Source: Magnetococcales bacterium WMHbinv6
Lineage (GTDB): Bacteria; Pseudomonadota; Magnetococcia; Magnetococcales; Magnetaquicoccaceae
Reading direction: 5' to 3'
Assembly (NCBI GenBank): GCA_002753135.1
Contig: PDZV01000020.1
Span: forward strand, 1-64,000
DNA: 64,000 nt
Position 1 is the stretch's first letter. Every line of letters begins with the position of its first letter. Positions 48,217 through 64,000 of the stretch are shown here, in pieces. The translations under genes and the position numbers were made by a program. The notes under the pieces are model-generated. The model saw only the letters and a program-made list of their open reading frames with translations. It did not search any database and had not been told where the DNA came from.

Positions 48217-49713
48217 ATGAATAACCGTTTTGCAGCCGCAGGCAATCCGATGCTTCGCACCATTCTGGTCGCCGATGACGACCACGCCATGCGCTACGTT
48301 CTGGAACAGGCACTGGGTCGGGCCGGCTATCGCGTACACAGTTTTGCCAACGGCAAGGCGTTGTTGGACTTTGCCAGCGAAACACCTGCCGATCTGGTCA
48401 TTACCGATATTGTCATGCCCTCCGGCTCTGGATTGGATCTGCTGCAAACCCTGCACGCCCGACAACCGGAGTTGCCAGTGATCGTCATGACGGCACAAAG
48501 TACCTTGAGCCACGCGGTACAGGCCTTTGAACGGGGTGCTTTTGAATATCTGGCCAAACCGTTTGACATTCGACGCATGATTGACCTGGTGGCCCAGGCG
48601 ATGGAACGGCATCAAAGCAGCCGCCCCCGTCCGGCCACCACCACCGAATTCAGCCGTTTCGGTGGCTTTGTCGGTCTTTCGCAAGCGATGCAGGAGCTGT
48701 TTCGCACCATAGGCCGTCTGGCCAATTCAGAGATGACCGTGCTGATTCACGGTGAATCGGGTACCGGCAAAGAGTTGGTGGCACGGGCTGTTCACGACCA
48801 TTCACCGCGCCGACAAGGTCCGTTCACCGCCATCAACATGGCTGCCATTCCGGCCAACCTGATCGAAAGCGAACTGTTTGGCCACGAAAAAGGGGCGTTT
48901 ACCGGAGCCGTTGCCCGCCACCACGGCCATTTTGAACGGGCCAAAAGCGGTACACTGTTTCTGGACGAAATCGGCGATATGCCGATGCAGGCCCAAACCC
49001 GTTTGTTGCGGGTTTTACAAGGCGGATCCTTTACCCGCGTCGGCGGCACGGAGACGCTGAAAGCGGATGTGCGCATTGTTGCCGCCACCCACCAAAATCT
49101 GCCCTCGGCCATTGTGGAGGGACGTTTTCGCGAAGATCTGTTTTATCGTTTGAATGTGGTGCCCTTGTACGTCCCTTCCTTGCGGTCGCGGCGGGAGGAT
49201 ATCCCTTTGCTGGTGGACTATTTTCTGGCCAGGGCGGCGCAACGTCTCGGTCTGCCGTTAAAACGCCTCTCCGCCGACAGTCTGGCAGAATTGATGGCCT
49301 ACGATTGGCCCGGCAATGTGCGGGAATTGGAAAATCTTATCCATCGTTTGATGGTTTTGACCCCGCAGGAGATTATTCAACGTGAACATTTGAATCTGCC
49401 ACGAGCCGGTAAATTATCCGGCACTTATGAAAACACACGAGAGGTGATTGCTCCTCTCATTGCCACCAGCACGGAAGAGAATAACCCGGAACATAATCTG
49501 CAGCGCTTTCTGGATACATTTTTTGCCTCTCCCGGTTGGAAAAATTGTGATAATCTTTACGATCTTGTGGTCAATCGAATTGAAAAGGCATTATTTGACC
49601 GTGTTTTGACGGAAACTTCCGGCAATCGGGTCATGGCCGCACGTCTGTTGGGTATTAATCGCAACACGTTGCGAAAAAAAATTCAGGATCTTGACGTGGA
49701 AGTGAAAAGATGA
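48217..49713 (+). CDS. ntrC: nitrogen regulation response regulator NtrC (sigma-54 activator)
   Basis: A 498-residue sigma-54 enhancer-binding protein. Receiver domain with Asp64 (VITDIVMP) and the conserved KPFD lysine; AAA+ domain with Walker A GESGTGKE, GAFTGA sigma-54-contact loop and Walker B TLFLDEIGDM; C-terminal Fis-type helix-turn-helix (NRVMAARLLGINRNTLRKK). The spacer between AAA+ and the DNA-binding domain is somewhat long. A sigma-54-like site is present upstream of flgK in this window, but a link to this regulator is not shown. Confidence 0.95.
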   Translation: MNNRFAAAGNPMLRTILVADDDHAMRYVLEQALGRAGYRVHSFANGKALLDFASETPADLVITDIVMPSGSGLDLLQTLHARQPELPVIVMTAQSTLSHAVQAFERGAFEYLAKPFDIRRMIDLVAQAMERHQSSRPRPATTTEFSRFGGFVGLSQAMQELFRTIGRLANSEMTVLIHGESGTGKELVARAVHDHSPRRQGPFTAINMAAIPANLIESELFGHEKGAFTGAVARHHGHFERAKSGTLFLDEIGDMPMQAQTRLLRVLQGGSFTRVGGTETLKADVRIVAATHQNLPSAIVEGRFREDLFYRLNVVPLYVPSLRSRREDIPLLVDYFLARAAQRLGLPLKRLSADSLAELMAYDWPGNVRELENLIHRLMVLTPQEIIQREHLNLPRAGKLSGTYENTREVIAPLIATSTEENNPEHNLQRFLDTFFASPGWKNCDNLYDLVVNRIEKALFDRVLTETSGNRVMAARLLGINRNTLRKKIQDLDVEVKR

Positions 49714-54221: not shown

Positions 54222-54896
54222 ATGAGCAGCCTCAATGAGCGGATCAATTTAGCCCGCAAACAAGCAAGACTGACCCAAAAAGAGTTGGCAGACCGTATCC
54301 ATGTCAGTCAAACTGCGATTCACAAACTGGAATGTGGCAGGTCCAAATCATCCAGACGTACCGTTGCCATTGCTCTGACCTGTGGAGTGGATCCCATCTG
54401 GCTGGATACCGGACGTGGCGAAATGTCTCTGCATGGTGCCTCAGCGGGATTGTCCACAGCGGATCCGAACAAGATGGTTGAGGGTGGTGAACTGTACCGC
54501 TACCCTCTCTTTGCACGACTGCCATTGATTGCCTGGGAAAATGTCGGGGGTTCGTGCAACCAATCCATTGAGTCATTTCATGCCAAAGCGGAAGCCTGGC
54601 TACCCATTGCGCCCAGGTCCAGTGATAAAAGCTTTGCGTTGCGTGTTCCTGATGATTCCATGGCACCCGAATTCCAGGAAGGTGAAGTCATTATTGTCGA
54701 CCCGACGTTGCCAGGAAAACACAACCAATTTGTTATTGCTCAATTGGAAGATGAGAGCGTGGCGACCTTCAAACAGTTGACCATCATTGGGAGCCAGGTT
54801 TTTCTGAAACCTTTGAACACACGCTACCCATTGCTTGATGTGCAGGAAAAGATCAAAATTTGTGGTGTGATTGTCAGTAAATATAAAGAGTATTAG
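54222..54896 (+). CDS. CI/LexA-like repressor (XRE helix-turn-helix plus S24 peptidase domain)
   Basis: A 224-residue transcriptional regulator. Residues 1-65 are an XRE-type helix-turn-helix (LTQKELADRIHVSQTAIHKLECGR). Residues about 95-215 are an S24 self-cleaving peptidase fold with the Ser/Lys dyad at Ser146 (VPDDSMAPEF) and Lys184 (TFKQL). Where related phage repressors have the scissile Ala-Gly (as in PLISW..AGEW), this protein has PLIAWENVGG, Val108-Gly109. Self-cleavage may therefore be slow or lost. It is phage-repressor-like, but no phage genes adjoin it. Confidence 0.85.
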   Translation: MSSLNERINLARKQARLTQKELADRIHVSQTAIHKLECGRSKSSRRTVAIALTCGVDPIWLDTGRGEMSLHGASAGLSTADPNKMVEGGELYRYPLFARLPLIAWENVGGSCNQSIESFHAKAEAWLPIAPRSSDKSFALRVPDDSMAPEFQEGEVIIVDPTLPGKHNQFVIAQLEDESVATFKQLTIIGSQVFLKPLNTRYPLLDVQEKIKICGVIVSKYKEY

Positions 54897-55051: not shown

Positions 55052-55693
55052 CTATTGGCTCAAATTGTGTTCCAACACATAGCGAATCAGATCGGCATTG
55101 CTTTCCAAGTCCATCTTTTCCAGGATTCGTGCCCGATATGTGGAGATGGTACTGGGGCTTAAATGCAGGGAATTGGCAATTTCGGCAATGCTTTGGCCCG
55201 ATCCAATACGGCGCAATACCGTAAACTCTCGATCAGAGAGCATTTCGTGTGGTAATTGATCATTGTTTTGTCCTGCAAGTTTACTGGCTATAATTTCGGA
55301 AACGTTTGTCGAAAAATAGCGCTTTCCTTTCATAATTGTTTTTACTGCCTGCACAATTTCATCCGCCTTTGCTGTTTTGGTAAGATAGCCGGATGCTCCC
55401 GCCTTAATGAACCGCATAATCAAGCTTACTTCATCACTGACGGTAAGAACCAGCACCTGCAATTTAGGCTTGACGGCTTTAATGCGCAACAAGATCTCCA
55501 GGCCATCCATGTCAGGAAGGTTGATATCCAGGAGGAGAATCTCCCAATCTCCGTCCAGAAGACGGCGCACCCCCTCCCGTCCACTACCAGAGGAACCCAA
55601 TTCCTCTTCTGCACAACCAAGACCTCCCATGAGAAGGACTCTGATTCCTTCTCGCACCACAGGATGATCTTCAATAATAAAGATCCGAGGCAT
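55052..55693 (-). CDS. NarL/FixJ-type response regulator
   Basis: A 213-residue two-component response regulator. The receiver domain has the acidic pocket (IIEDH), the phosphoacceptor Asp56 in LLLDINLPD and the conserved Lys in GYLTKTAKADE. The C-terminal LuxR-type helix-turn-helix is LSDREFTVLRRIGSGQSIAEIANSLHLSPSTISTYRARIL. No kinase is cotranscribed; the nearest candidate is the hybrid kinase at 56448, whose HPt domain suits a phosphorelay to a separate regulator. Confidence 0.93.
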   Translation of the reverse strand: MPRIFIIEDHPVVREGIRVLLMGGLGCAEEELGSSGSGREGVRRLLDGDWEILLLDINLPDMDGLEILLRIKAVKPKLQVLVLTVSDEVSLIMRFIKAGASGYLTKTAKADEIVQAVKTIMKGKRYFSTNVSEIIASKLAGQNNDQLPHEMLSDREFTVLRRIGSGQSIAEIANSLHLSPSTISTYRARILEKMDLESNADLIRYVLEHNLSQ

Positions 55694-55732
55694 GTTCCAT
55701 ATCATCCTTGAAGACACCCGCCGAAAAGCAAT

Positions 55733-56170: not shown

Positions 56171-56200
56171 TTGCATTTTACACCCTGCCAGCTCTACAAT
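56171..56200 (+). promoter_or_regulatory. possible promoter of the RNA candidate
   Basis: TTGCAT (56171-56176), 18 nt, TACAAT (56195-56200). The -10 is a 5/6 match, the -35 weak. It would start a transcript near 56207, ending at the T run at 56392, about 185 nt. Confidence 0.35.
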
Positions 56201-56206
56201 GAAAAA

Positions 56207-56392
56207 CAGGGGAATAGAACACCTTCATCAAGCGGCACCCACAATAACTCTGTGGAATGTATAGGTATTCAATGCTACGAGGTTTGACTCGTGTATCGAT
56301 TGCCGGGTGGGTTACGGTCATACAATACCTGTCACAACAGGAAAAACCGTAGCTCCGCACTTGATGGCGGGTTTCTACCACCCGGTTTTTTT
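56207..56392 (+). ncRNA. candidate structured small RNA with intrinsic terminator
   Basis: A plus-strand segment with dense complementary pairs and no reading frame. Stems: CCACA/TGTGG (56239-56243, 56251-56255); ACGAG/CTCGT (56277-56281, 56288-56292); an 8-bp pair CCGGGTGG/CCACCCGG (56303-56310, 56378-56385) closing a region that contains TACGGT/ACCGTA (56313-56318, 56346-56351), within which CCTGT/ACAGG (56328-56332, 56337-56341) forms a hairpin, and then CCGC/GCGG (56355-56358, 56367-56370). The closing stem runs directly into seven Ts (56386-56392). CATCAAG (56226-56232) can also pair with CTTGATG (56360-56366). No known RNA family was recognised. The 5' end is a guess from the promoter-like sequence. 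Confidence 0.5.
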
Positions 56393-56447
56393 GTCGGAAC
56401 AATGACTTCTGATCACACAATCAATCGTCTGGCTGTTCGCGCACTTG

Positions 56448-58730
56448 CTATTGTGGCGTCGCCAGCAGTTGTTCAAACTGGTCGCAAGAGGTATTGACCA
56501 GTTCTGAACAGCGCTTGATCTGCGACGAAAGCTGCTGACAATCCGCCATGTGATCCTGCTTTTTGGCAACCGCATTGATTTGGCTGCTCAACAGGTAGAG
56601 ATGCTCCATCCCCATAAAACCAGCTGCCCCCTTTAAACCATGTGACAGTTGGGCCAGCATCGGATGGTTGTTTGTCTCCAGACAGGTCGCCATTTCAAGA
56701 CAGACCCGCTGTTCTTCTTCTCTGAATTTGTTTAATAAAATACGTATTTTATCTTCACCAATGGCCTGCTGCAGAAGCCCTGCTTTTGTCATATCCAACA
56801 CATTTTCATGGTTAATTTTTTCCTCTGGAGCGAGATTGCCCACCGCATGCACGGAGGGGGCTTCCCCCGGCATGGCACAGAACGGATCAGGCAATTGCAG
56901 AGCGAGGGCGCGGGCCAATTTGTCGCGCAGTATGGGCATCTCAAGCGGTTTGGTAAGAACGGCATTGCAACCGGCTTGCATCGCCTTGTCGTGAGAAGAT
57001 TGGGTAATATCGGCTGTCATGGCCAGGATGGCAATGCGGGCGATGGGTTCTGACCATGATCGGATGCGACTGGTGGTGGTAAAACCATCCATATCCGGCA
57101 TGTGCAAATCCATCAATATGGCGTCAAAGGGGATGTGCTGCAACAACTGCAAGGCAGCAAAGCCATTTTCTGCCATGGTGACCGTATGGCCATCGCTCTC
57201 CAGAAGATAGCGGATAACCATTTGATTGACCACCTCATCTTCCACTACCAAAAGGGAAAGGGGTGGCAGAATAGGGTGTTGTGTCATCGTTTCCGACTCT
57301 TTTCCCAGAAAGAACGGAATACGCACGGAAAAAACAGCCCCTTTTCCCTGACGACTGGAGACGGTAATTTTTCCCTCCATCGCTTCAACCAATTGTTTGC
57401 AAATGGAAAGACCAAGGCCGATACCGGCAGCATTGCGTGAGGTTGACGAATCTGCCTGCACAAACATCTCGAAAATGCGTTTCTGATCCTGTTGTGCGAT
57501 ACCACAACCACTGTCTTCGATCTGAAACAGAATTGCCCTTGCTCCATTCTCTGCCACAGCTCCATCACTCTGCACATGCAGGCGGACAAAACCTTGCTGA
57601 GTAAATTTGATGGCATTGGATACCAGGTTGGTAAGAATCTGGCGCAGACGCAGTACATCGCCAGACAAGTATGGCGGCATGTGACGATCTACCTGCCAAG
57701 AAAAAGAGATTCCCTTGGCGGTTGCCTGATGCAAGAAAAGATTTCCCACCTCATCGACCAGACGGGAAACAGAAAATATATTTTGTTCTATCGTTAATTT
57801 TCCTGCCTCAATTCTGGAAAAATCCAGAATATTCGTCAAAATATCCAGCAAAATATTGCTTGTATTTACTGTGACATGCAAAATATCTCTTTGTCTCGGA
57901 TTCAACTCGGTTCGGGAAAGCACTTCCAGCATACCGATCAGACCACCAAGAGGTGTACGTATTTCATGGCTCATCTTGGCCAGAAATTCACCTTTTATCT
58001 GGTTTGCACGTTCCGCATCCGCTTTTTCCAGCTGCAAGGCATGGTTGAGTTCCGCCATCTGTTTGATGGCATTCTCGGTGGTACTCAGCCAACTGTTGGC
58101 ACTGCGGGAGAGCAAACCGATTTCATCCAGGGCATGGCTGCGCTCAATCACCAAACGGTTACACTCCCCTGGCTGCAGGGCCACCATTTGGTGTGCCAGC
58201 AAAGAGATTGGTTTGCTCAGCAAGTGGCGTGCAAGAATGATCAACATGACGGTGGTAAAAAACAGCTGCGCAATCAGTCCACCCGTATAATAGAGCGCCT
58301 TGAATGTGGCCTCATTTTGGATCGCTCTTTTATCGACAACAATCTTTAGCAATCCGATCATCTCACTGCTGTTGACGGGTGATGGCAGTGGATGGAGCAT
58401 GGCGGAGGAAAAATCCAAACCAGGCTGTTTGCTTTTGATCATGCGAAACTGTTCGTTTGATTCGATAGAGGCAGCCAGAATAACCGGCGCAGCCAGCAGA
58501 CCCTGCAGCACTTCCTCGCTAATCATCTCATTATTGGCATAGACGCCAACGCCTGCTTGCGCAATCACTGTCTGTACCAGTTGCTGCTCCAGGGCCAAAG
58601 CGTTTTCTATTTCATTGACAGAAAAATGGTGGTAGGTCGCGGTTCCGACCAGGATCGAAAAGAGCAACATCCCCAATCCAACATAGGTGGCAAAACGGTA
58701 TTCCAGTCTTGTTCGTATCCGATTAATCAC
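56448..58730 (-). CDS. hybrid sensor histidine kinase with receiver and HPt domains
   Basis: A 760-residue membrane kinase of the BarA/TorS tripartite type. Membrane helices at about 14-33 and 148-168 bracket a periplasmic domain of about 110 residues; then HAMP, HisKA with His255 (KMSHEIRTPLGG), HATPase (N box SNAIKF, G boxes DSGCGI and GIGLGLSIC), a receiver with Asp541 (ILMDLHMPDMDG) and an HPt domain with His697 (LSHGLKGAAGF). Its start overlaps the binding-protein gene by 8 nt, so the binding protein probably reports to this kinase. Output likely goes to a separate response regulator. Confidence 0.93.
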   Translation of the reverse strand: MINRIRTRLEYRFATYVGLGMLLFSILVGTATYHHFSVNEIENALALEQQLVQTVIAQAGVGVYANNEMISEEVLQGLLAAPVILAASIESNEQFRMIKSKQPGLDFSSAMLHPLPSPVNSSEMIGLLKIVVDKRAIQNEATFKALYYTGGLIAQLFFTTVMLIILARHLLSKPISLLAHQMVALQPGECNRLVIERSHALDEIGLLSRSANSWLSTTENAIKQMAELNHALQLEKADAERANQIKGEFLAKMSHEIRTPLGGLIGMLEVLSRTELNPRQRDILHVTVNTSNILLDILTNILDFSRIEAGKLTIEQNIFSVSRLVDEVGNLFLHQATAKGISFSWQVDRHMPPYLSGDVLRLRQILTNLVSNAIKFTQQGFVRLHVQSDGAVAENGARAILFQIEDSGCGIAQQDQKRIFEMFVQADSSTSRNAAGIGLGLSICKQLVEAMEGKITVSSRQGKGAVFSVRIPFFLGKESETMTQHPILPPLSLLVVEDEVVNQMVIRYLLESDGHTVTMAENGFAALQLLQHIPFDAILMDLHMPDMDGFTTTSRIRSWSEPIARIAILAMTADITQSSHDKAMQAGCNAVLTKPLEMPILRDKLARALALQLPDPFCAMPGEAPSVHAVGNLAPEEKINHENVLDMTKAGLLQQAIGEDKIRILLNKFREEEQRVCLEMATCLETNNHPMLAQLSHGLKGAAGFMGMEHLYLLSSQINAVAKKQDHMADCQQLSSQIKRCSELVNTSCDQFEQLLATPQ

Positions 58731-61004: not shown

Positions 61005-61081
61005 GTCCTCGTAGCTCAGCCGGATAGAGCAACGGATTCCTAATCCGTAGGCCGTGCGTTCAAATCGCGCCGGGGACACCA
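61005..61081 (+). tRNA. tRNA-Arg (anticodon CCT)
   Basis: A complete 77-nt cloverleaf. Acceptor GTCCTCG pairs with CGGGGAC (one G-U); D arm around GCTCAGCCGGATAGAGC; anticodon stem ACGGA/TCCGT enclosing TTCCTAA, anticodon CCT (reads AGG); T arm GCGTTCAAATCGC-type; discriminator A and an encoded CCA end at 61081. tRNA-Arg(CCT) is a frequent integration target, and mobile-element genes lie beyond its 3' end. Confidence 0.95.
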
Positions 61082-61129
61082 ATATTTTCAAATGGTTACG
61101 GTCACTAACAAGGTGGCTGTTTTTGTTCC

Positions 61130-61149
61130 AGTAAGCAAATAGTAAGCAA
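61130..61149. repeat. tandem AGTAAGCAA repeats beside the tRNA
   Basis: AGTAAGCAA occurs at 61130-61138 and again at 61141-61149, an 11-nt period, 49 nt past the tRNA end. Phased short repeats next to an attachment site are typical of integrase arm-binding sites. Confidence 0.35.
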
Positions 61150-61202
61150 CAGGAGAAAATTCGACTCTTTCCTGTTCTCCAGCCAGAGAGAGTTCCACCC
61201 AC

Positions 61203-61230
61203 AAAAAAACCCCGGCCAACTGCTCCGGGG
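61203..61230 (-). terminator. intrinsic terminator of the mobile-element operon
   Basis: On the minus strand CCCCGG ... CCGGGG (61225-61230 and 61210-61215 on the plus-strand numbering) followed by seven Us. It ends the leftward transcript of the three element genes before it reaches the tRNA. Confidence 0.85.
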
Positions 61231-61252
61231 GATCTGCCAACTGCCAGCCGGG

Positions 61253-61753
61253 TCAAATTGCCGCTGGTCGGAGCTGGCCGTCAATAATGGTGTACGACAC
61301 GCCAGACGGATCGATATAGACCTGTGGCATGCTCGGAGGGGTAAAGGGTGGTGGCGGTGCCGGGGGTTGGTATGCCGTTCGGAAAGATGGCCGGTGCGCC
61401 CTCAGAAGAGCCAACAACAAGCTGTCCGAATATCTGACAGTGTGGCCCACCAATTCACCGCCTTGGAAAACCGGCTCTTGAACACCTTCAACAGCCCGCT
61501 TCCGTGCGGCACGCTCCAACTGGTCTGCCGCATGTTCAAGAGCTTCCTCAACCGCTTCATCAAAAACCGGGTCATTGTGTCGCCATTCGTGAACAGCCTG
61601 ACGTGAAACATCAACTGCCCGGCAAGCATGGCCAAGACAGCCGGTTTCAGCCAGCGCCTCCAGAAACGCCCGTTTTCGTGCCGGGGTCAGGTGGCGAGAT
61701 TTGCCCCTGCCCGTCACGCCTGCGCGTTGGGGGTTCAAGTTTTGCCTGCTCAT
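61253..61753 (-). CDS. terminase small subunit-like DNA-binding protein
   Basis: A 166-residue protein with an N-terminal helix-turn-helix (LTPARKRAFLEALAETGCLGHACRAVDVSRQAVHEWR) followed by a helical domain (VFDEAVEEALEHAADQLERAARKRAVEG) and SDSLLLALLRAHRP. This is the arrangement of phage terminase-small-subunit-like proteins, which recognise packaging sites. The C-terminus is Pro-rich. No large terminase or capsid gene follows towards the tRNA, so it may belong to a satellite-type element. It overlaps the next gene by 4 nt. Confidence 0.72.
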   Translation of the reverse strand: MSRQNLNPQRAGVTGRGKSRHLTPARKRAFLEALAETGCLGHACRAVDVSRQAVHEWRHNDPVFDEAVEEALEHAADQLERAARKRAVEGVQEPVFQGGELVGHTVRYSDSLLLALLRAHRPSFRTAYQPPAPPPPFTPPSMPQVYIDPSGVSYTIIDGQLRPAAI

Positions 61754-62205
61754 GCCGCCCCCCGTAAAATCGCCACAAGCTCAGGATGTGTTCCGGGTTG
61801 CACAATCACCCGTGTCAGATCCTCGAAACCCCCGAACGGTCGGCTGTCTGGAACTTCGGGAGTTGGATCTGCAAATGCGGCCCATCCTGGCTCATCGATA
61901 GAACCAATTCTTTGCTTGACGATGTAGAGTACCCCCTTTGCCGCCAGAGGAATGCGCCCAACCAGCAAGGGGAATTTCATGTAGTGCGTAACGCATTCGA
62001 TCATGGTGCCAACCTCGGAGCCATCCAGGTAGAAGGTCCATTTTGTCAGCTTCGGCGACCGCTGCTTTGCGCCTGCAACGATCAGCACGTTTTGACCTCG
62101 CCATTTCCCAGCAAGAGCCGTGCGCCCGCTAACCTCGGTTCGCTCAAACAACCGCCCAACAGGGTGCCGCCGGTCGTTAACGTAATATTCATCATTAGGA
62201 TTCAT
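61750..62205 (-). CDS. conserved hypothetical protein of the mobile element
   Basis: A 151-residue protein of unknown function, starting at the ATG 62205 behind AGAGGTAAAT. It is soluble, moderately basic at the N-terminus, and has no motif I recognise. It overlaps the terminase-like gene (ATGA) and lies downstream of the primase-helicase gene across a 188-nt spacer. Confidence 0.6.
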   Translation of the reverse strand: MNPNDEYYVNDRRHPVGRLFERTEVSGRTALAGKWRGQNVLIVAGAKQRSPKLTKWTFYLDGSEVGTMIECVTHYMKFPLLVGRIPLAAKGVLYIVKQRIGSIDEPGWAAFADPTPEVPDSRPFGGFEDLTRVIVQPGTHPELVAILRGAA

Positions 62206-62327
62206 ATTTACCTCTATTGTCAAAATAGTAACATGCCATTTACTGCCCAGCAACGCCTCGTTTTAGAACGATTCATCCTCGTAGCTCCTACCTATTGCCG
62301 CCCCATGAACGCGCCCTGCAGCTCGTT

Positions 62328-62360
62328 CTGTGCGGTCTGTGCGGTCTGTGCGGTCTGTGC
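62328..62360. repeat. 9-bp tandem repeats downstream of the helicase-primase gene
   Basis: CTGTGCGGT (ACCGCACAG on the other strand) repeated 3.7 times without interruption, in the short non-coding gap between the helicase-primase stop and the next gene. Resembles iterons in size and phase, though it may be only a slippage tract. Confidence 0.75.
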
Positions 62361-62393
62361 GCCAAGGCTCCAACACATTCCAGCCAGGATAAA

Positions 62394-64000
62394 TCAGTTC
62401 ATCCATTCTTCATCAAACCCCGCAAAAGGATCATGGCCGCCTGGGTCTGTGCCATATGTGCTGTCTGCAACACCTTCTGCACATATAACACCCGCAACAC
62501 CCGCAACATGTTGCACCTGTTGCACCTGTTGCATATGTAGCACCTGTTGCACCTGTTGCAGTGGAATTACATCATCTCTCCCCCCAGAAGTGGGAATATC
62601 ATATCTGCTATTCCTATGGGGTCCGACTTTAAGAAGCAGTCCCCCTTTCACCATACGTATGATACAGAACCGGATGGAATCTTGATCTTTGCCGATAAAG
62701 GAAGCTATCTCCTGGCGGGTTAGTGATCGGCAAGCATGGCGAATTGCCTCTATGATTTCGGATTGCTCCGGGGTCAATCTTGCCCGTGCCGCTTCTTGCT
62801 CGTCCATCAAACTCCAGGTCATGTTCTCACGGTCCCACTTGATTTCAAGCGGCGAGTCGTCCACAAGGTCACGGCCAGTACGGTGCAAGGTCAAATGGCT
62901 GTCAGAGCCTGCTTTGCGTTTTACAATCAAGGTTCCGTCGCAGCCGCCAGCCAGGCCGGTGGTGCCGCTGATTTCGTTAGCTGGTGATTCGGCATCGGTC
63001 ATTTTCCTGGTGTGGTGAACAATCAGCACGGTAACGCTGTGTTTTTCTGCCAGAGCCTTGAACACTGCGACAACAGCATAGTCTTCGCCGTACAGGTCGC
63101 CATTCCGTCCCCGTGGTGGACGAATACGTGCCAGGGTGTCAAGAATGACGACCTTTGTTCCTGGATGGCTGGTCAACCATTCGTCTAATAGATCAACGCC
63201 GCCTTGGTCGATTCGCGGCCATTCCAACGCAAAATGGACATTGCCCGTTGGCTGATCATGACAAACCTGTGAGATTCGGTTCTGTAGCCGCCGCTGGTGA
63301 TCTTCCAATGAGACATAGAGCGCCGTTCCTTGTGCGGCAAACAGGCTGCCGAACACTCGCCGCCCATAAGCCACTGACAACAGCAAGTGAAGACACAGCC
63401 ATGATTTGCCAGCCTTTGGAGCGCCTGCCATAAGATAAACGCCTGGAGTTGATAGCAGGCCCGTGACGCACCATTCAACCGGATCAAAAGTTTTCGCCAT
63501 CAATTCCGTCATGGTGAAGGTGGGCGGCTTGTCCGGTGCCGGTGCCCCTTCCGCCTGCGGTGCCTCAATCAACTGTGCCTGTTCTATCAGTTGTCGCGCA
63601 GCATTAAGCCCATGCAGTTGGTGAAAGTCGTTTACATCTTTGCCCTGCTCACCAGGGTCAAACCTTGGCACGGCCAACCACCCACCAACAGCCTGCGCCG
63701 CTGCAACCGCGTGATGATTCGGGGTGCCATCTGGCTTGATGTCTGCCAGAACAACCAGCCTTGCCGATGGATATTTGCCCCTCAGCCACTGGCAGACAGC
63801 AGGCAAGTTTTTGTCGCTCAGTGCAGCAATACCGATTGCTCCAGATGCCATGCTGCCGCTGGTGACGGTTGCAACGCCTTCCCCAACCAGGAAGGTTTGC
63901 CCGGTGCCGTCGCCCTGTGGCGAGTCGCTTGTTGCCCACCAGCCGCCTTTGATGGTTCCTCCCAGAAGGAAAGCCTTCAAACCCTGCTCATCGATCATGG
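62394..64000 (-). CDS. Toprim/AAA+ helicase-primase of a mobile element (5' end beyond window)
   Basis: At least 534 residues, running off the right edge; an in-frame ATG at 63998 is within the Toprim region (LGGTIKGGWW), so the true start and probably a zinc-finger primase part lie outside. Toprim motifs GEGVATVTSG and VVLADIKPDG come first. A RecA/RepA-like helicase domain follows, with Walker A GAPKAGKSW, Walker B KVVILDTLARIRP and LIVHHTRK. The C-terminus has a helix-turn-helix-like segment, then a repetitive QQVQQV tail. Typical replication protein of integrated phages or satellites. Confidence 0.82.
   Translation of the reverse strand, partial: MIDEQGLKAFLLGGTIKGGWWATSDSPQGDGTGQTFLVGEGVATVTSGSMASGAIGIAALSDKNLPAVCQWLRGKYPSARLVVLADIKPDGTPNHHAVAAAQAVGGWLAVPRFDPGEQGKDVNDFHQLHGLNAARQLIEQAQLIEAPQAEGAPAPDKPPTFTMTELMAKTFDPVEWCVTGLLSTPGVYLMAGAPKAGKSWLCLHLLLSVAYGRRVFGSLFAAQGTALYVSLEDHQRRLQNRISQVCHDQPTGNVHFALEWPRIDQGGVDLLDEWLTSHPGTKVVILDTLARIRPPRGRNGDLYGEDYAVVAVFKALAEKHSVTVLIVHHTRKMTDAESPANEISGTTGLAGGCDGTLIVKRKAGSDSHLTLHRTGRDLVDDSPLEIKWDRENMTWSLMDEQEAARARLTPEQSEIIEAIRHACRSLTRQEIASFIGKDQDSIRFCIIRMVKGGLLLKVGPHRNSRYDIPTSGGRDDVIPLQQVQQVLHMQQVQQVQHVAGVAGVICAEGVADSTYGTDPGGHDPFAGFDEEWMN
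62508..62562. repeat. 9-bp repeats encoding the helicase-primase C-terminal tail
   Basis: TTGCACCTG-type units (with variants CACCTGTTG) repeated several times inside the 3' end of the gene, giving the QQVQ(Q/H)V tail on the minus strand. The period is a multiple of three, so the reading frame is kept. Confidence 0.7.

Follow-up and report, generated by a model that had tools for sequence, protein, structure and literature searches.

The window, that is, the whole stretch of 64,000 nucleotides that was analysed, carries a candidate RNA on its plus strand (56171–56395), flanked by a response regulator gene and a hybrid kinase gene. The neighbouring genes are as follows:

54222–54896, plus strand: CI/LexA-like S24 repressor (phrog_4, E 5.8e-42), left of the RNA
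55052–55717, minus strand: response regulator, left of the RNA
56448–58730, minus strand: hybrid kinase, right of the RNA

The S24 repressor gene lies on the strand of the RNA, 1.3 kb upstream of it, and is possibly a leftover of the same immunity region. In another part of the window (61005–63998), a small-terminase-like gene (phrog_4044) and a gene for an AAA_25/Toprim replication-type protein come after a tRNA-Arg (CCT); this arrangement suggests an element that integrated at the tRNA-Arg (CCT).

The plus-strand RNA 56200–56395 was folded and compared with dinucleotide shuffles. Its minimum free energy was −71.7 kcal/mol, against a shuffle mean of −50.1 (SD 3.9), giving a z of −5.59, and none of 200 shuffles was as stable. 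For the minus strand of the same region, z was −2.56. Judged from this predicted stability, the folded product of 56200–56395 is a real structured RNA. An initial annotation had described it as lacking a reading frame and as convergent with the kinase gene. The latter is true and the former essentially right, since the RNA is overlapped by mechanical ORFs only (68 aa on the plus strand; 80 and 66 aa on the minus strand).

The same annotation had stated that the RNA matches no known RNA family, and here it was mistaken. When the short stretch was searched against Rfam, the sole significant match was to sRNA-Xcc1 (RF02221), on the 3′ half of the RNA (56302–56394; 41.4 bits, E 5.7e-6 / 2.7e-6), the score being below the gathering cut-off of 53 bits. 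This match was missed when the whole window was searched at the default threshold. The window copy spans model positions 1–87 of 87 with a three-way junction, and the alignment contains the ATACAA(T/G)ACC core of sRNA-Xcc1. Our own model, R1, scored the window copy at 56.6 bits, the copy itself being among the 30 training sequences of R1. By these matches, the window RNA belongs to the sRNA-Xcc1 family as a divergent copy.

In Xanthomonas, sRNA-Xcc1 is a stable RNA of ~88 nt, mapped by RACE (PMC2996969). Matches to RF02221 were present in 34 of 100 relatives and, across the phylum, in 57 of 398 genomes, with up to nine per genome, and a model built from 30 copies returned 66 matches from 100 viral contigs preselected with the core pattern. 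A search with R1 found the window RNA to be a single copy in its own genome; a second candidate there (C31:899-987; 26 bits, E 0.07) had an unconvincing guide match. A DNA search of 100 relatives, plasmids and phages returned no close copy of the locus but itself.

The family set comprised 94 copies, no two of them alike in the guide region; most came from phage contigs and Magnetococcales. When the loci were compared side by side, a layout of three parts was observed: U, an upstream element; X, the sRNA-Xcc1 three-way junction; and D, the leader of a gene. U has promoter-like boxes, a short stem-loop, a 7-mer of variable sequence, usually with GCGG after it, and a terminator. D is a leader with a Shine–Dalgarno sequence that repeats the variable sequence of U, and the gene follows. 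X shows two short guides, which vary by locus and match both U and the leader at the Shine–Dalgarno sequence. For example, L018 has CCGAAAA..CAACAAG in U, CTTGTTG..TTTTCGG in X and CCGAAAAGGAGCAACAAGACC-ATG in D, and L161 (Chromobacterium) has CTACTAG in U, CTAGTAG in X and CTACTAGGAGG in D.

The guides match the targets of their own locus. Perfect complementarity of at least 7 nt was found between X guide and own U in 82 of 92 copies (19% for swapped partners), and between X guide and own leader in 69 of 94 (12% for swapped partners). The longest guide match averaged 8.78 for U and 7.14 for D, while 2000 permutations never gave means above 6.25 and 5.71, respectively. An identical target of at least 6 nt lay both upstream and downstream of X in 56 of 94 copies, compared with 2.5% for swaps; since the copies are related and not independent, all these swap figures are effect sizes and not p-values. 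The stems were examined by strand-swap tests, because RNAalifold on an automatic alignment missed stem P2a, apparently by misalignment. The pairing energies were −18.1 kcal/mol with the own partner versus −14.1 with swapped partners for P1, and −12.1 versus −6.4 kcal/mol for P2a. The P2a strand of the window copy paired best with its own partner (rank 1 among 91 copies). It may be noted that one subtype (L029–L032) has the RNA without U; two of its downstream ORFs were inspected, and one matches phrog_2480 (unknown function).

The genes downstream of the relatives are often those of phage anti-repressors. Among 79 downstream ORFs, AntA (12), Bro-N (10), Rha (8), KilA-N (2) and ORF6N (1) were found, and 28 of the 79 matched phrog_63 (anti-repressor Ant). 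At one locus (L227; G327:C1:3158244-3158331), the downstream gene is SymE (E 1.7e-13), and the guide CTGTGAG is complementary to the SymE leader CTCACAG, which adjoins GAG. This gene fits the SymE/sRNA-Xcc1 cassette that occurs in Xanthomonas integrons (PMC12444791), and the guide match suggests a possible mode of control for such cassettes. Small ORFs that have no Pfam match follow several of the Magnetococcales copies. Related ORFs of ~120 aa (MTT..RTI.I.V..KGK.R..DA), also without a Pfam match, lie downstream of L009, L010, L017, L018 and L024, all from Magnetococcales. Downstream of the copy L022 / L219 (G015:C288) lies an ORF whose product has a type I restriction HSDR_N domain; an integrase gene is nearby.

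Read against this layout, the window copy consists of the following parts, the stems being taken from the fold:

56171–56200, plus strand: promoter-like TTGCAT (56171–56176), 18 nt, TACAAT (56195–56200); 8 nt before GGGG and placed relative to U as in relatives
56209–56235, plus strand: element U with a1b1-like targets, TAGAA (56215–56219) and CATCAAG (56226–56232), the latter followed by CGG; both pair with the guides of X
56239–56255, plus strand: residual terminator hairpin of U, CCACA/TGTGG, its T-run lost
56302–56394, plus strand: X, the sRNA-Xcc1-like three-way junction (RF02221 match, R1 and fold)
56302–56310/56378–56386, plus strand: stem P1 of X
56311–56318/56346–56353, plus strand: stem P2a of X
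56328–56332/56337–56341, plus strand: stem P2b of X
56354–56358/56367–56371, plus strand: stem P3 of X
56360–56366, plus strand: guide CTTGATG in the P3 loop (b′-like), unpaired in the X fold and complementary to CATCAAG of U
56372–56377, plus strand: guide TTTCTA in the P3–P1 joint (a′-like), unpaired in the X fold and partly complementary to TAGAA of U
56386–56392, plus strand: T7, directly 3′ of the P1 3′ strand and terminator-like with the hairpin 56368–56384

Several of these elements had been picked out in the initial annotation and were found as described: the promoter-like boxes, the complementarity of CATCAAG and CTTGATG, the T7, the stem formed by CCGGGTGG (56303–56310) and CCACCCGG (56378–56385) with 67 nt between its strands, and the local hairpin CGGGT (56368–56372)/ACCCG (56380–56384). 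The promoter-like pair agrees with the consensus at only 8 of 12 bases, and the promoter scan does not list it. The CATCAAG match is by itself unexceptional (rank 34 of 92 against swapped partners), and its weight comes from its position; by a rough estimate, a chance 7-mer would lie no more than 5 nt from the expected place with a probability of ~11/4^7, or 7 in 10,000.

Other parts of the family layout are missing. The longest T-run in the tail of U is 3 in the window copy and at least 5 in 57 of 94 family copies. No downstream leader match was present (rank 30 of 30 for D), nor was there an ORF for a target gene at that place. On the other hand, a T-run of at least 5 ends X in only 4 of 94 family copies, and the window copy has T7.

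We consider the window locus, with a probability of about 0.8, to be an orphaned, fused C4-type antisense RNA of the sRNA-Xcc1 kind that has lost its target gene. At complete loci, the promoter would make a short RNA, U, and read-through would yield U, then X, then the gene. The two guides shown by the three-way junction of X would pair with the gene leader around the Shine–Dalgarno sequence and block translation. U, having the same targets, may hold or titrate X, a decoy role proposed by analogy with a1b1 of P1 and IsrK of Gifsy-1. In the window copy, which may be transcribed, the T-run of U has decayed, and both leader and gene have been lost. With these three parts lost, the expected product is a single U–X fusion RNA of ~190 nt that ends at T7. 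Such an RNA could close into a rod by folding in cis, or leave X as a junction. These two states would explain the two alternative folds proposed in the initial annotation, which correspond to the U–X pairing (CATCAAG/CTTGATG) and to X alone (the three-way junction). The analysis thus bears out that annotation in so far as it described a terminated, structured RNA with alternative folds that may stand alone.

There is a somewhat less than even chance that a prophage or mobile immunity region was lost and that the locus is its dead remnant, which decayed recently and still folds, and is untranscribed or functionless. The missing T-run of U, leader and gene agree with such a state, as do the single copy and the want of a clear trans target in the genome. 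A pattern search for trans targets in the own genome gave 4 matches versus 1 in the reversed control, and the two that were examined (L174 and L176) were unlike gene starts. However, P1, P2, P3, the ATACAATACC core, both guides and the promoter-like boxes are intact, and a T7, unusual for the family, is present.

It is rather unlikely, though less so than the readings taken up below, that the host has kept the copy as a stand-alone trans-acting RNA, e.g., for immunity against phages or elements with a CATCAAG anti-repressor leader. The self-terminated form and the exposure of both guides speak for it, and there is a precedent in the C4-derived stand-alone sRNAs of Acinetobacter, for which an immunity role was proposed (PMC5320573), but a target in the own genome was not found. 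The window copy may thus be either a relic or a stand-alone RNA that acts in trans. More doubtful still is a wider proposition, namely that sRNA-Xcc1, instead of being a free virulence sRNA, makes up a large branch of the C4-type guide-RNA switches that has gone unrecognised and whose guides are hypervariable and self-matching. The window copy would then be a domesticated member, its decoy and antisense RNA fused into a single self-terminated guide RNA that works in trans, e.g., in immunity against phages with CATCAAG in the anti-repressor leader.

The initial annotation had also proposed that the RNA regulates the adjoining kinase and response regulator as part of a signalling island. The position between the two genes is all that favours this proposal, which we regard as highly improbable. 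The relatives of the RNA adjoin unrelated genes, namely small ORFs and genes for anti-repressors. In addition, the nearest homologues of the kinase and the regulator (L179, in G014), adjacent to each other in the opposite order, have no RNA copy nearby. Response-regulator homologues within the genus are only 37–45% identical. Finally, the length near 190 nt and the rod-like whole fold recall 6S RNA (RF00013), but this candidate is refuted, the only match in the genome being a proper 6S RNA elsewhere (C19:1560-1742, 86.9 bits) and the window locus matching sRNA-Xcc1.

Published accounts describe homologues of sRNA-Xcc1 as RNAs controlled by HrpG/HrpX, carried by integrons and associated with vesicles, and predict a great many targets for them. 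The match between guide and leader points to a simple, testable target in their place, namely the leader of the next gene downstream, which is often a phage anti-repressor gene and sometimes SymE. RF02221 would then be grouped with C4 and isrK and bring with it a large number of natural guide–target pairs, and the window copy itself would be a modest case, an orphan form of the switch family. In the literature searched, the scope of which stopped short of Chen et al. 2011, no paper joining sRNA-Xcc1 to C4-type control was found.

Compared with sRNA-Xcc1 as defined by RF02221, the window copy has the full-length model match, the three-way junction and the conserved ATACAATACC core; it differs in its score below the cut-off, its fusion to U, its own T7 and the lack of a downstream gene. 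With the SymE/sRNA-Xcc1 cassette it shares the RNA family, there placed upstream of a gene, but the window has no SymE.

The comparison with C4 of P1/P7 (RF01695, RF03163) extends to how targets and RNA are ordered and spaced, and to the two guides in a three-way junction. In the annotation of phage P1, a1 is at 48255, b1 at 48269, c4 at 48343–48419, a2 at 48423, b2 at 48452 and icd at 48470. The P1 order is thus a1b1–c4–a2b2–icd/ant, and complete sRNA-Xcc1 loci likewise often carry anti-repressor genes. In the window, the upstream targets complementary to the guides (TAGAA and CATCAAG, a1b1-like) are present, 87 and 76 nt before X; a1 and b1 of P1 lie 88 and 74 nt before c4. In contrast, the a2b2 targets and the anti-repressor gene, present in most relatives, are absent from the window. 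The Rfam models for C4 (searched up to E 10) and c4-a1b1, the Rfam name for the first part of the P1 region, gave no match to U or X, and the isrK model (RF01394) gave no significant one (12.1 bits, wrong strand, E 2.2); the relation to C4 therefore rests on layout and logic. The isrK model has a sub-threshold match (35.1 bits, E 5.3e-6) to the a1b1 region of P1 as well (L211, 48230–48311). The terminator of P1 a1b1, CCGCA..TGCGGTATTTTT, resembles the U terminator of Magnetococcales copies.

In P1/P7, the 5′ end of C4 is made by RNase P, and the C4 loops bind the target message, partly covering the ribosome-binding site (PMC5320573). In Gifsy-1, the terminator of IsrK is partially read through into orf45-anrP, and short IsrK opens the message in trans (PMC4825925). 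IsrK (RF01394) thus resembles U in being a short upstream RNA with a terminator, with read-through into a complementary message and an anti-repressor gene (PMC4825925), but U of the window keeps its hairpin without the T-run, and so has no terminator of its own before the antisense part. Because of the shared order and spacing, together with the precedents of C4 and IsrK, complete sRNA-Xcc1 loci very probably work, by analogy, as these two systems do, with the same logic in a different sequence family.
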